Assembly: GCA_902560855.1 (NCBI GenBank)
Contig: CACENJ010000001.1
Span: 1 to 64,000, forward strand
Length of the DNA: 64,000 nt
Direction: 5' to 3'
DNA from: an uncultured Pelagibacteraceae bacterium
GTDB lineage: Bacteria; Pseudomonadota; Alphaproteobacteria; Pelagibacterales; Pelagibacteraceae
Part shown: piece after piece, positions 39,290 through 48,408 of the stretch
Layout: each line of letters starts with the position of its first letter
Position numbering within the stretch: position 1 is the stretch's first letter
Position numbers and translations under genes: made by a program
The notes under the pieces: generated by a model
Seen by the model: only the letters and a program-made list of their open reading frames with translations
What the model was told of the DNA's origin: nothing
Database searches by the model: none

Positions 39290-40291
39290 CTAGAGCCAGT
39301 TTGGATATGGCAAGCCTTTTTCTTTAAGGAATTCCTTATTAAATAATTTACTATTATATTTATCAGATTTATCGCAAAGAATAGTTACAATTGTTTTACC
39401 TGGTCCAAGCTCTTTCCCCATTCTAATTGCACCAGCAATATTAACTCCACAACTTGTTCCTAGACTCAAACCTTCATTTTCAATTAAACTATAAAGAACA
39501 GGCAAGGATTCTTGGTCATCAATTGAGTAAGCACTATCTATTTTAGCTTCTGCAAAGTTTGCTGTAATTCTACTTGAGCCTATTCCTTCGGTTATAGACC
39601 CTCCTTCACTTTTTAACTTACCATTTTGAATATAGTTATAAAGTGCAGAGCCAGCAGGATCAGATAAATAAATTTTAATATTTTTATTTTTTTCTTTTAA
39701 AAATCTGCTTACACCACTTATTGTTCCTCCTGTTCCAGAAGAACAAATAAAACCATCAATTTTACCACTAGTTTGATCCCAAATTTCAGGGCCTGTTGTT
39801 TCATAATGGCCTTTTGAATTTGCTGTGTTATCAAACTGATTAGCCCAAACTACTCCATGATTATTTGTTTTTTTTAACTCTTCAGCTAATCTTCCTGCAA
39901 TTTTTACATAATTACCATCATCTTTGTATGGTTTGGGTGGAACTAATCTTAAATCAGCACCTATGTTTTTTAATGCATCTTTTTTTTCTTGGGTTTGATT
40001 TTCATTCATAACAATAACAGTTTTGTAACCTTTTAAATTTCCAATTAAACATAGCCCAATTCCTGTATTGCCAGCAGTTCCTTCAACTACAATTCCGCCT
40101 TTAGAAATTAATTTTTTTTCTTCAGCATCTTTTATTAAAGCTAGAGCAGCACGATCTTTAACTGATCCACCAGGATTTAAGTATTCGGCTTTTCCATAAA
40201 TGTTGCAACCAGTTATTTTTGAAGCAGCATTAAGTTTTATTAAAGGTGTATTGCCAATACCTTCAATAAAGTTATCTTGTGAATTTTTCAT
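39290..40291 (-). CDS. cysK: Cysteine synthase family PLP enzyme
   Basis: GNTPLIKLN; YLNPGGSVKDRAAL; VEGTAGNTGIGLC; SSGTGGTISGVSRFL. Confidence 0.88.
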   Translation of the reverse strand: MKNSQDNFIEGIGNTPLIKLNAASKITGCNIYGKAEYLNPGGSVKDRAALALIKDAEEKKLISKGGIVVEGTAGNTGIGLCLIGNLKGYKTVIVMNENQTQEKKDALKNIGADLRLVPPKPYKDDGNYVKIAGRLAEELKKTNNHGVVWANQFDNTANSKGHYETTGPEIWDQTSGKIDGFICSSGTGGTISGVSRFLKEKNKNIKIYLSDPAGSALYNYIQNGKLKSEGGSITEGIGSSRITANFAEAKIDSAYSIDDQESLPVLYSLIENEGLSLGTSCGVNIAGAIRMGKELGPGKTIVTILCDKSDKYNSKLFNKEFLKEKGLPYPNWL

Positions 40292-40295
40292 TTAT

Positions 40296-40865
40296 TTATT
40301 CATCACTACTTGGAGTAATACCATAAGGTTTGAATTCTTCTGTAGTCGTTCCAACATTTTTAGCTGGTATTCCGACCATTACTGCATTTTCAGGAACATT
40401 TTTAGTTACAACTGCATTAGCTCCAATCTTGGCATTTTTGCCAACTATAATTGGTCCTAAGACTTGCGCACCAGACCCAACCACAACATTATCTTTTAAT
40501 GTTGGATGTCTTTTGACATTTCTTTGATTATCCGAGTCAATACTGGGAGATATACCTCCTAATGTAACCATGTGATAGATGGTAACATTATCACCAATTT
40601 CTGATGTTTCTCCAACAACAACACCCATACCATGATCAATAAATAAATTTTTTCCAATCTTTGCTTTTGGATGAATTTCTATTCCCGTTAAAAACCTTGA
40701 AAGTTGCGATATCATTCTTGCAACTAGATGGAACTTTGCAACAGAAAAAAAATGGGCAATCTGATGAAAAAAAACTGCTTTTACTCCTGGATAAGTTAAT
40801 ACTACGCTTAGTTTAGATTTTGCAGCAGGATCCCTGTTAATTATCGATTCTAAAAAACTGTTCAT
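40296..40865 (-). CDS. cysE: Serine O-acetyltransferase
   Basis: [44 protein letters not shown] hexapeptide repeats. Confidence 0.93.
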
Positions 40866-40897
40866 AATTATTTAAATGATTTTATTTAAATTATTGA

Positions 40898-41017
40898 TTA
40901 GCTGTTGCAGCAACAACTAGTTGACTCTGGAACACAAGAACACTCTATATTTCCATCGCAAGAGCATTTATCATTTATGCAATTTGCACAATTACATTTT
41001 GAGTTATTACAAGTCAT
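40898..41017 (-). CDS. 39-aa Cys-rich, metallothionein-like small protein (not in supplied ORF track)
   Basis: Reverse-strand translation MTCNNSKCNCANCINDKCSCDGNIECSCVPESTSCCCNS*, 11 Cys with CxC/CxxC/CCC motifs; between persulfide dioxygenase-like gene and cysE, same strand. Confidence 0.7.
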   Translation of the reverse strand: MTCNNSKCNCANCINDKCSCDGNIECSCVPESTSCCCNS

Positions 41018-41068
41018 ATGTTTAATATAATAGTTGTTATTAAAAAAACAAGATCAATTTAGTCGCAA

Positions 41069-41761
41069 TTATATTTGATCCAAAGTCAAACCTTTTACAT
41101 TAGCTGGTACAGCAATATCCATCATTTTAGGATTTGCTAATTTTAAGTTACTCATAATTTCTGCATATTCTTCCTTTGAGTTAACTTGTAGTCTTGGATT
41201 GTTATTTCTTTCAATTTCAATTGTAGAGTATTTTTTTCCATTATAATCATGTGCAGGATATACAAAAGTTTTTTCTGGTAATTTAAGCAACTTGTTGAAT
41301 AAAGAGTCATATGCATCATAAGAACTTCCATTTTGAAAATCTGTTCTACCAGTTCCATTAATTAAAAGAGTATCACCAGTAAAAACTCTATCGTTCATTA
41401 AATAGCAGTAAGAACAATCAGTGTGACCAGGTGTATAAATTGCTTTAAGTTCAATATTTTCTACATTTATCTTTTCATTGTCTTTTATTTTTAAATCAAT
41501 TACTTCTGACTTGGATTTTTCTCCCATAACTCTAATACAGTTCGTTCTTTTATTTAATTCATTCAACCCGGTGATATGATCAGCATGTATGTGAGTATCA
41601 ATTACTTTAACTAGTTTTAATTCTAAATTTTCTAAAATTTTTACATATTCATTTGTATGATCGATAACCGGATCAATTATCAAAGCTTCTCTGCCTTTTC
41701 CGCTAGATATAATGTAAGTATAGGTTGAGGATTTTATATCAAATAGTTGTTCAAATATCAT
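41069..41761 (-). CDS. MBL-fold persulfide dioxygenase-like (ETHE1 family)
   Basis: IFEQLFDIKSSTYTYIISS; DTHIHADHITG; YTPGHTDCSYCYLMNDRVFTGDTLLINGTGRTDFQNGSS. Confidence 0.88.
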   Translation of the reverse strand: MIFEQLFDIKSSTYTYIISSGKGREALIIDPVIDHTNEYVKILENLELKLVKVIDTHIHADHITGLNELNKRTNCIRVMGEKSKSEVIDLKIKDNEKINVENIELKAIYTPGHTDCSYCYLMNDRVFTGDTLLINGTGRTDFQNGSSYDAYDSLFNKLLKLPEKTFVYPAHDYNGKKYSTIEIERNNNPRLQVNSKEEYAEIMSNLKLANPKMMDIAVPANVKGLTLDQI

Positions 41762-45235: not shown

Positions 45236-45913
45236 ATGAGTATAAGAAACTTTGCAAAATTTTTTACAGTTTTATTAGCTGTGTTTTTGCTGACAACCAC
45301 ATTTTCTGACGCAGCAAAAAAGAAAAAGAAAAAAGAAAAAGACTGCATTTATTGCCAAAAGTATGAAAAAATGAAAGATTGGCCTGAGAGCGAAAGGCCA
45401 GCAGCATTTATTTGGGAGGATATAAAATATCCTGAAGGAATGTTTCTACCTACATCTGACACTCCAAAGAAAAAGCAAGGTGAAGCAGGAGGAAAAGTTT
45501 ATGCAAGATTTGTTAAAGGAAAAGGGTCTTTAAACAAATATCAGCATTTAATGATAAGAGATATGGCTTACTTTGAAGCATTATTTAACGAAATGCTAAA
45601 AGATAAAAGAGCAAAAGTTGAAACATTAGAAGGACTAAAAAAGGGTAGAGAAGCAATGAGAATGAGCCTTCAAATATCTCCTAAAGCAAAAACTTCCGAA
45701 GCAGTATTAAAGTTTTGGGCAACTGGAAAGATGTTAAAAGCTGCATGGAAACAGAACAAAAAGAAAAAGAAAAAGAAATCAAAAATAGACCCCGAAATTG
45801 CAGAACGAGCGGCAGTACTTGCAAATATGAAAAAACAAATTGCTTTAGCAAAAGTTAATGCACAAAGAGCAGCTACAATTGAGGCTCAAAAACAAATAGA
45901 ACAAACTCAATAA
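45236..45913 (+). CDS. Secreted Lys-rich hypothetical protein with CxxC
   Basis: Signal-like N-terminus; DAAKKKKKKEKDCIYCQKY; coupled to next gene (TAATG overlap). Confidence 0.75.
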   Translation: MSIRNFAKFFTVLLAVFLLTTTFSDAAKKKKKKEKDCIYCQKYEKMKDWPESERPAAFIWEDIKYPEGMFLPTSDTPKKKQGEAGGKVYARFVKGKGSLNKYQHLMIRDMAYFEALFNEMLKDKRAKVETLEGLKKGREAMRMSLQISPKAKTSEAVLKFWATGKMLKAAWKQNKKKKKKKSKIDPEIAERAAVLANMKKQIALAKVNAQRAATIEAQKQIEQTQ

Positions 45914-48408
45914 TGATAAAAAAAATTTTAATTAAAACTGCATTTATACTCTTTTTGATATCAAACACATTTGCTAATGCAAATGATGTTGCTGGATTAG
46001 CAGGTGTTTCCGAAGCAGCAGGAAATTCGGCTCAAGCTGCAGCTGACCAATTAGCAAGTGATGCGGGTAAAGTTACCGAAAATTTAGAAGCCGCTACTGA
46101 AGCTTTAGGAGAAGCAAAATCTGATATTGGTAAAGCATTAGACACATCAATTGCTCAAGCAGAAACAGCTATGGCATTTGCACAAGAAAGTTTAGCTAAA
46201 GGAGATATAACATCAGCAGTTCAGGCCATGACATTGGTTGAAGGTGTTACAGATATGGCATTAGGTGCGGTGCCCGACCCAACTGCATTGGATATGTCAG
46301 ATATGGATTTTGGAAAAGATTTTTCACCGGAAGAAATGGCAGCTCTATCAAGTATAGCAGGAACAATGGGAGCTGGAAAAGTTGTTGCTATGCAAAAACT
46401 TGCTGGATCAATGAATGCAGTAGAAGGAGCAGGTTTTGATGCAAAAGGAATGATGGGAGCATTAGATGCTAATGGCATTGGAATTGGATCAGCTATGGAA
46501 GGCTTAGCAGATGCAGGTATGGTTGATTTGGGAGCTGTTATGGGAACAGAGACATTCGATATGGGAGCCTTTGATGCAGGTAGCTTTGCATCTATGAATG
46601 TTGCAGAAATGGGGATGAACCCAGCAATGATGGCAGGAGCTTTAGAAGCTTTACCAGTTGGAGCAGCTACAGCTGCATTAGAAACTTTAACTTCAGATCC
46701 AGGTGCAATGGGTGAGATGGCTGGAGCAATGACCGGTGCAATAGGTGCAACTATGATGGCAAAAGGTATGGGCGCAGAAATGATGGATGCTATGGGAGCC
46801 TCAATGGGAATGGAAGGTATGTCAGGAATGGCTGAAGGTATGCAAGGATTAGAAGGTATGGAAGCACTTGGAGAAGCAATGGGTGGAATGGCAACTATGG
46901 CTGCAAGTTTAAGTGAAGCATTTGGAGATCCTTCAACAGGAATTACTGCATCAATGTCAGGAACGGTTGGAATGATTAGTGGAGCTATTTCAGGAAAAGC
47001 TCCTAAAGAAAAAACTGCTATAGCAATGGGGATGGAATCAAAAGATTCAGCAGCAGCTTTAATGGCTGATGAAGGACCAGAAGCAATCGAAATGCCAGAA
47101 AATGTTAGTGAATCAGGAATGATGATGGGAGCCATGGTTATGGCAAAACCTTCATTAGCAGGCGGGTTACCAGGCGCTATGGCACCACCAGAAGGTATGA
47201 CAGCTATGGGAATGGAAGCAGCAGGAGCAATAGGTGCTGATGCTGGAGTTGGAATGGCTGGTATGGCCGATGTTATGGGAGGTGCAATGGATGCAGACCA
47301 AATGGGAGAACATATGGCAGCAATGACTGGTATGGATGCTGGAGCAATGGATCAATTAGGAATGGCAGAAATGGCAGCTCAAACAGGTTTAACACCAGGA
47401 ATGGTAGCTAGCATGGGAGCTGCAGGAATGGCAGGAATGGATGTAACATCTGTTATGTCTACTGAAATGGCAGGACTAGGAAGTGAAGCAATTCAAGGTA
47501 TGGCTGCTATGGCAGCTGAAGGAGCAATGCCAGCTTCTATGATGGGCGATATGATGGAAACAGGTTTAGTTAACCAAGGCACAATGGCGGCAATGGGAGC
47601 AACAGGTATGGAAGGTTTAAGTGAAGCCATGGGTATGGAAGGTGGCGACATGGGTTTAGCAGCAATGAGTGGTGGAATGGTTGGAATGGGAAAAATGGAT
47701 ATGGATGCAGAAATGAATCCTGAAATGGCTGAAGCCATGGGGGTATCAGGAGGACCTGAAGGAGCTAAACTAGGAGATATTATGGGAGCTGGAGGACCTG
47801 AAGGCGGAATGGAAGGCATGGAGGGTATGGAAGGAATGGAAGCAGGAATGGAATCCGGAATGAATTTAGGACAAGTGTCAGCAGCAATGGGCACAGGTTT
47901 AGACCCAGGTGCAGCAATGGGCTCAGTTGCAAAAGCAGCAGGTGCAGCTTCTGAAGCAGGATCAGGATTAGCAGGCGCAGCAATGGGATCAGCAATGTCT
48001 GCTCAAGGTGCAGCAGCTTCTGCAATGGGATCAGGTGCAATGGGCGCAGCAATGGGAGCTGGTGGCATGGGTGATGGTGCTATGGGCAAAGCTATGGGCG
48101 GCGCAATGCAAGAAGGTATGGGCGGCGCAATGGGCGGCGCTATGGCAGGTGCTATGGCAGGTCAAGCAGGCGGCATGGGCGGCATGGGCGGCATGATGGG
48201 CGAAGGCGGCATGATGGGCGAAGGCGGCATGGGCGGTATGATGGGCGGTCAAGGTGGTTTTGGTGGGCTTGGTGGCGAAGGCGGCATGTTCGGCGAAGGC
48301 GGTATGATGGGCGAAGGTGGACCAGGATTTGGCGGCGAAGGTGGCCCTGGAGGACCAGGAGGACCAGAAGGACCAGGTGGACCTGACCCAGGTGGAAATC
48401 CTCCGTAA
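45913..48408 (+). CDS. Secreted 831-aa Met/Ala/Gly-rich acidic repeat protein
   Basis: Signal-like MIKKILIKTAFILFLISNTFANA; hundreds of residues of AMG/GMxGMxE-type repeats; collagen-like GGPGGPGGPEGPGGPDPGG end; no Cys/Arg/Trp/Tyr seen. Confidence 0.8.
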   Translation: MIKKILIKTAFILFLISNTFANANDVAGLAGVSEAAGNSAQAAADQLASDAGKVTENLEAATEALGEAKSDIGKALDTSIAQAETAMAFAQESLAKGDITSAVQAMTLVEGVTDMALGAVPDPTALDMSDMDFGKDFSPEEMAALSSIAGTMGAGKVVAMQKLAGSMNAVEGAGFDAKGMMGALDANGIGIGSAMEGLADAGMVDLGAVMGTETFDMGAFDAGSFASMNVAEMGMNPAMMAGALEALPVGAATAALETLTSDPGAMGEMAGAMTGAIGATMMAKGMGAEMMDAMGASMGMEGMSGMAEGMQGLEGMEALGEAMGGMATMAASLSEAFGDPSTGITASMSGTVGMISGAISGKAPKEKTAIAMGMESKDSAAALMADEGPEAIEMPENVSESGMMMGAMVMAKPSLAGGLPGAMAPPEGMTAMGMEAAGAIGADAGVGMAGMADVMGGAMDADQMGEHMAAMTGMDAGAMDQLGMAEMAAQTGLTPGMVASMGAAGMAGMDVTSVMSTEMAGLGSEAIQGMAAMAAEGAMPASMMGDMMETGLVNQGTMAAMGATGMEGLSEAMGMEGGDMGLAAMSGGMVGMGKMDMDAEMNPEMAEAMGVSGGPEGAKLGDIMGAGGPEGGMEGMEGMEGMEAGMESGMNLGQVSAAMGTGLDPGAAMGSVAKAAGAASEAGSGLAGAAMGSAMSAQGAAASAMGSGAMGAAMGAGGMGDGAMGKAMGGAMQEGMGGAMGGAMAGAMAGQAGGMGGMGGMMGEGGMMGEGGMGGMMGGQGGFGGLGGEGGMFGEGGMMGEGGPGFGGEGGPGGPGGPEGPGGPDPGGNPP
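48020..48400 (+). repeat. GGC-rich short tandem repeats within the 3' end of the Met/Gly-rich gene
   Basis: Repeated units such as GGCGGCATGATGGGCGAA and GGCGGCATGGGC, in strong GC contrast to surrounding DNA. Confidence 0.8.

Follow-up and report, generated by a model that had tools for sequence, protein, structure and literature searches.

A conserved 39-residue, eleven-cysteine peptide encoded ahead of cysE in part of the SAR11 group resembles metallothioneins in composition

The window analysed here, a stretch of 64,000 nt of DNA from an uncultured member of the Pelagibacteraceae (SAR11), carries on its minus strand a very small, cysteine-dense open reading frame (ORF) in the space ahead of cysE. 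The locus raises the question of whether this ORF is a gene at all and, if it is, whether what matters is a protein that binds metals or thiols, or the translation of cysteine codons in front of a cysteine-biosynthesis gene. The features concerned are as follows.

40898..41017, minus strand: gene for a 39-aa, 11-Cys metallothionein-like small protein (translation, orthologues, codon-level selection)
40296..40865, minus strand: cysE, serine O-acetyltransferase (TIGR01172 above its cut-off)
39290..40291, minus strand: cysK-like cysteine synthase (NF007989 above its cut-off; Pfam PALP)
41069..41761, minus strand: ETHE1-like persulfide dioxygenase family protein, the upstream neighbour (PDB matches; below all NCBIfam cut-offs)

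The translation of 40898..41017 (-) is MTCNNSKCNCANCINDKCSCDGNIECSCVPESTSCCCNS*, with 39 residues and 11 cysteines, in agreement with an earlier, sequence-only reading of this DNA. That reading had also placed the ORF between an ETHE1-like gene and cysE/cysK, on one strand and with short gaps, and the coordinates bear this out: the ORF lies 51 nt past the stop of the ETHE1-like gene (41069) and 32 nt ahead of cysE, and all 4 genes are on the minus strand. The label 'ETHE1-like' was likewise upheld, since the protein matched PDB entry 4ysb (3.5e-64) and the human persulfide dioxygenase ETHE1 (4chl, 1.2e-49) better than hydroxyacylglutathione hydrolase, or glyoxalase II (2e-16). Past ETHE1 comes a divergent peroxiredoxin gene, and the genes around the peptide have to do with sulfur assimilation and with thiol or oxidative damage. 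Beside the peptide gene we recognised neither a metal-resistance gene nor a metal regulator. Two further observations from this DNA are recorded here. Between the peptide stop and cysE, at 40866-40897 (-) and equivalent positions, there are AT-only inverted repeats, ATTTAAAT..ATTTAAAT and TTTTTAG..CTAAAAA, that recur in several lineages, and positions 45913-48408 (+) of the window hold an 831-aa ORF that is extremely rich in Gly, Met and Ala, repetitive, and has a signal-peptide-like N-terminus.

A short ORF of this kind could be a chance product of an AT-rich spacer, and its small size and lack of an entry in the family libraries are in keeping with such an origin. By a binomial estimate using the base composition of the window, however, at least 11 Cys codons in 38 would arise with a chance of ~1e-8 per ORF. 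The presence of orthologues at the same site in many genomes carries more weight than this figure: a first pass through 60 relatives yielded same-site orthologues, the region upstream of cysE was collected from ~130 genomes of the window's genus, and the ORF is kept in more than 80 genomes with synonymous drift. This codon-level conservation refutes the chance origin, to which we give practically no credence, and the Cys-rich ORF is a real, conserved gene.

Residue statistics for 78 distinct full-length peptides showed that family members are usually 36-39 aa long and have 11 conserved cysteines, at times with one or two extra, for a Cys content of 26-33%. The 11 core Cys columns are 97-100% conserved and 72 of the 78 peptides keep all eleven; conservation of the Cys codons in relatives, which the sequence-only reading had named as a check, was thus confirmed. 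The dN/dS comparison that it had also proposed came out in the same direction. In pairwise codon counts, Cys dN ranged from 0 to ~0.03, with the amino acid retained even though interchange of TGT and TGC is saturated between lineages, and omega for the non-Cys codons was ~0.2-0.4, indicating purifying selection; residues N5, N12, K7, D16 and P30 are conserved despite synonymous changes. Length variants retain or add CxC modules, with preservation of the array. For example, a 5-residue insertion at L007 brings an additional CxC, and the class that is three residues shorter gains a Cys at column 15. Such fixed Cys spacing would be needed by a metal-binding array and would not be needed by a sensor that counts codons.

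Relatives of the peptide were found by profile search in 80/399 genomes of the window's genus, always as a single copy per genome, and in 9 of the 57 genus genomes that are at least 90% complete. Within a sample of the order, one further genus, a sister genus, has the peptide (5/121 genomes there), and 385 genomes sampled across the class gave no convincing match. One match from outside the order (G608/L182) proved to be an 18-residue fragment inside a longer frame and was judged to be due to chance. A search with one DNA pattern found no phage or viral carriage, and our literature searches turned up no account of a peptide like this one from SAR11. In loci that have ETHE1 next to cysE, the two genes are 187-248 nt apart with the peptide and 20-48 nt apart without it, and in many genomes in which ETHE1 was not found upstream of cysE, such a peptide was absent there too. 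The prospect that the ORF would be interrupted in relatives was not realised: all loci with the long gap carry an intact ORF, with the exception of 2 alleles (L020 and L096, gaps of 145-147 nt) that encode forms of 19 and 21 aa, shortened in frame; the central cysteines are lost there, while the promoter, the start and the CCC close to the stop remain. Apparent internal stops in some other relatives were merely C-termini 1-2 residues shorter, and short strings such as MQCNCKPEGVCCCCN or MSCCCNN were cut short by a search pattern and are not biological short peptides. In a sample of 109 loci that was rich in carriers, presence of the peptide required 5 changes on the cysE tree, as compared with 19.5 when labels are shuffled, and thus follows clades.

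The composition of the peptide is that of a metallothionein in the broad sense: it is small and Cys-rich, has CxC, CxxC and CC motifs, lacks aromatic residues in 65 of the 78 sequences, and conserves its cysteines at the protein level. Animal and fungal metallothioneins similarly have ~30% Cys, CxC and CCC motifs and few aromatics, and the mammalian alpha domain, which holds four divalent ions, has 11 Cys, the number seen here. The SAR11 peptide differs from these proteins in being bacterial and tied to a cysteine operon, and as there is no detectable homology, the likeness is in composition only. The bacterial metallothioneins SmtA and BmtA (cyanobacteria, Pseudomonas) are also small and Cys-rich with CxC-type motifs; the SAR11 peptide is shorter and matches no profile. 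At an E-value of up to 10, no Pfam family was returned for any of 19 members and no NCBIfam family for the window's peptide, with the reservation in both cases that HMMER filters may drop Cys-rich matches, and the PDB held no match to the peptide. Furthermore, bacterial metallothioneins commonly have His ligands beside Cys, whereas His is absent from 54 of the 78 peptides, including the window's own, and smtA adjoins a gene for an SmtB-type regulator whereas the peptide gene adjoins cysE. Since there is no family profile match, His is mostly absent and metal binding is a prediction, the peptide is not filed within the SmtA/BmtA family. The proposal of the sequence-only reading that this is a metallothionein therefore stands with respect to composition (26-33% Cys; CxC, CxxC and CCC) and to selection on every Cys and its spacing; metal binding, or the sulfane-sulfur buffering that it gave as the alternative, is a predicted function. 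Most likely, the peptide family is new, in that it matches no Pfam or NCBIfam model, and lineage-restricted.

We aligned 91 distinct upstream sequences on the ATG of the peptide gene and observed two conserved elements, separated by a spacer of 16.

41046..41051, minus strand: predicted -35 box TTGTTT (-34..-29 from the ATG; TTG at -34..-32 in 88-97% of the 91 sequences)
41024..41029, minus strand: predicted -10 box TATATT (-12..-7 from the ATG; TATAT at -12..-8 in 93-96% of the 91 sequences)

Positions -6..-3 are little conserved. A sigma-70 scan of the site did not report this promoter (-35 TTGTTT, spacer 16). For comparison, 6 of 59 large ORFs in the window have a TATA-like box at nearly the same distance, and none of these has an accompanying TTG. 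Canonical sigma-70 geometry puts +1 on the A of the ATG, and the peptide mRNA therefore looks to be leaderless, with its predicted transcript start on the initiation codon. From its location between the promoter and cysE, we infer that the cysE-cysK unit begins with the peptide gene. In the peptide-less genomes L045, L056, L067 and L014, which have ETHE1 next to cysE, a TATATA box occurs 7-10 nt ahead of the ATG of cysE, and cysE itself may therefore have a short leader or none.

The sister-genus loci were informative about which neighbour the peptide accompanies. At L178, L263 and L264 the order is peptide-cysE-msrB (the msrB product matches TIGR00357), with no ETHE1 or cysK match alongside in 1.5-kb flanks. 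The tie to cysteine biosynthesis that had been suggested from the window is accordingly upheld as far as linkage to cysE is concerned, and a tie to ETHE1 is rejected, because the peptide has its own conserved promoter and occurs before cysE with no ETHE1 match in those flanks. At L265 and L266 (1501-1998 in each), cysE is missing from the locus and an intact 11-Cys peptide is followed by msrB; a clear TTG/TATAAT promoter is kept at L265 and is less clear at L266. The remainder of these 2 genomes, which are 70-75% complete, yielded no full cysE.

Might the ORF instead be a cis-acting leader peptide, at whose Cys codons, the terminal CCC foremost, ribosomes slow when cysteinyl-tRNA is scarce, thereby altering cysE-cysK expression? 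There is a precedent in mycobacteria, where leaderless polycysteine ORFs act as cysteine-responsive attenuators (Canestrari et al. 2020, as related in passages of PMC9094748 and PMC9031893). The SAR11 ORF resembles these in its predicted leaderless start, its contiguous Cys codons (77 of the 78 peptides have the CCC near the stop) and its place upstream of a sulfur/cysteine gene: a promoter precedes it, the cysE ATG follows after 25-38 nt, and it is nearly always beside cysE. Both shortened alleles keep the start and the CCC, as a leader would. In one length class, moreover, the CCC and stop are spanned by a possible hairpin.

40900..40918, minus strand: candidate RNA hairpin in which the CCC codons pair with the final sense codons and the stop (changes on both sides at three pairs, in the 39-aa class only)

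For this hairpin, 244 of 264 cells were paired as against 230.7 in codon shuffles, and 0 of 2000 shuffles reached 244; the rows are related to each other, so that these counts do not translate into a probability. The hairpin is poor in the 36- and 37-aa classes, RNA folding overall is weak (z -0.5 to -0.8), a terminator scan found none, Rfam has no family at the site, and we see no convincing attenuator structure. The SAR11 ORF also differs from the mycobacterial ones in having eleven spaced, conserved cysteines together with non-Cys residues that are conserved far from the CCC. An attenuator would be expected to occur nowhere but beside the cysteine gene under its control, and a leader solely for cysE is weakened by L265 and L266, where the peptide has outlived cysE as a dedicated leader should not. 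We regard a pure leader function as improbable, with perhaps more to be said for it than for the 2 readings that follow.

In one of these, the peptide would have a metal-free thiol role in partnership with ETHE1, CysK or MsrB, as a cysteine store, a redox buffer or a sulfane-sulfur carrier. The genes nearby, for a persulfide dioxygenase, cysteine synthesis and a peroxiredoxin and, in the sister genus, for MsrB, are of the sort that such a role would predict, but a mere store would not require fixed Cys spacing, and ETHE1 is not always beside the peptide; we consider this role rather unlikely. To a dual function, in which a metallothionein-like protein is encoded by a leaderless, Cys-codon-rich mRNA start that senses cysteine and sets expression of the downstream cysteine-synthesis genes, we give a similarly small chance. 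That the peptide is a metal- or thiol-binding protein in its own right is very probable from the pattern of selection, and our preferred reading, which we hold to be probably correct, is of a new family of metallothionein-like proteins whose production is coupled to the supply of cysteine. Persistence of the 11-Cys peptide without cysE at L265 and L266 counts in favour of the metallothionein-like reading; the L020 and L096 alleles without central cysteines, the near-constant adjacency to cysE, the hairpin over the CCC and stop in one length class, the failure to match a known metallothionein profile and the want of a recognised metal gene alongside count against it.

According to this metallothionein-like reading, the promoter of the peptide gene would drive the cysteine-biosynthesis transcript, which would begin, without a leader, at the ATG of that gene. 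A protein of ~30% cysteine would in this way share a transcript with serine acetyltransferase and cysteine synthase and be produced alongside them. The most likely partners of its thiolates would be soft d10 metals (Zn(II), Cu(I) or Cd(II)), held in a cluster, and the peptide may act as an intracellular metal/thiol buffer.

SAR11 are described as being without assimilatory sulfate reduction (PMC5069961), and a survey of Ca. Pelagibacter ubique lists most detoxification systems as rare or absent (PMC4161860). In the latter organism, which may or may not carry the peptide, cysE and cysK were reported not to be up-regulated under sulfur limitation (PMC5069961). SAR11 bacteria count among Earth's most abundant cells. 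If the preferred reading is true, a subset of them, about a fifth of the sampled genomes of this genus, would possess a metal/thiol buffer coupled to cysteine synthesis, and the patchy presence of the peptide within one genus means that an ecological role can be tested along gradients of metals and sulfur.
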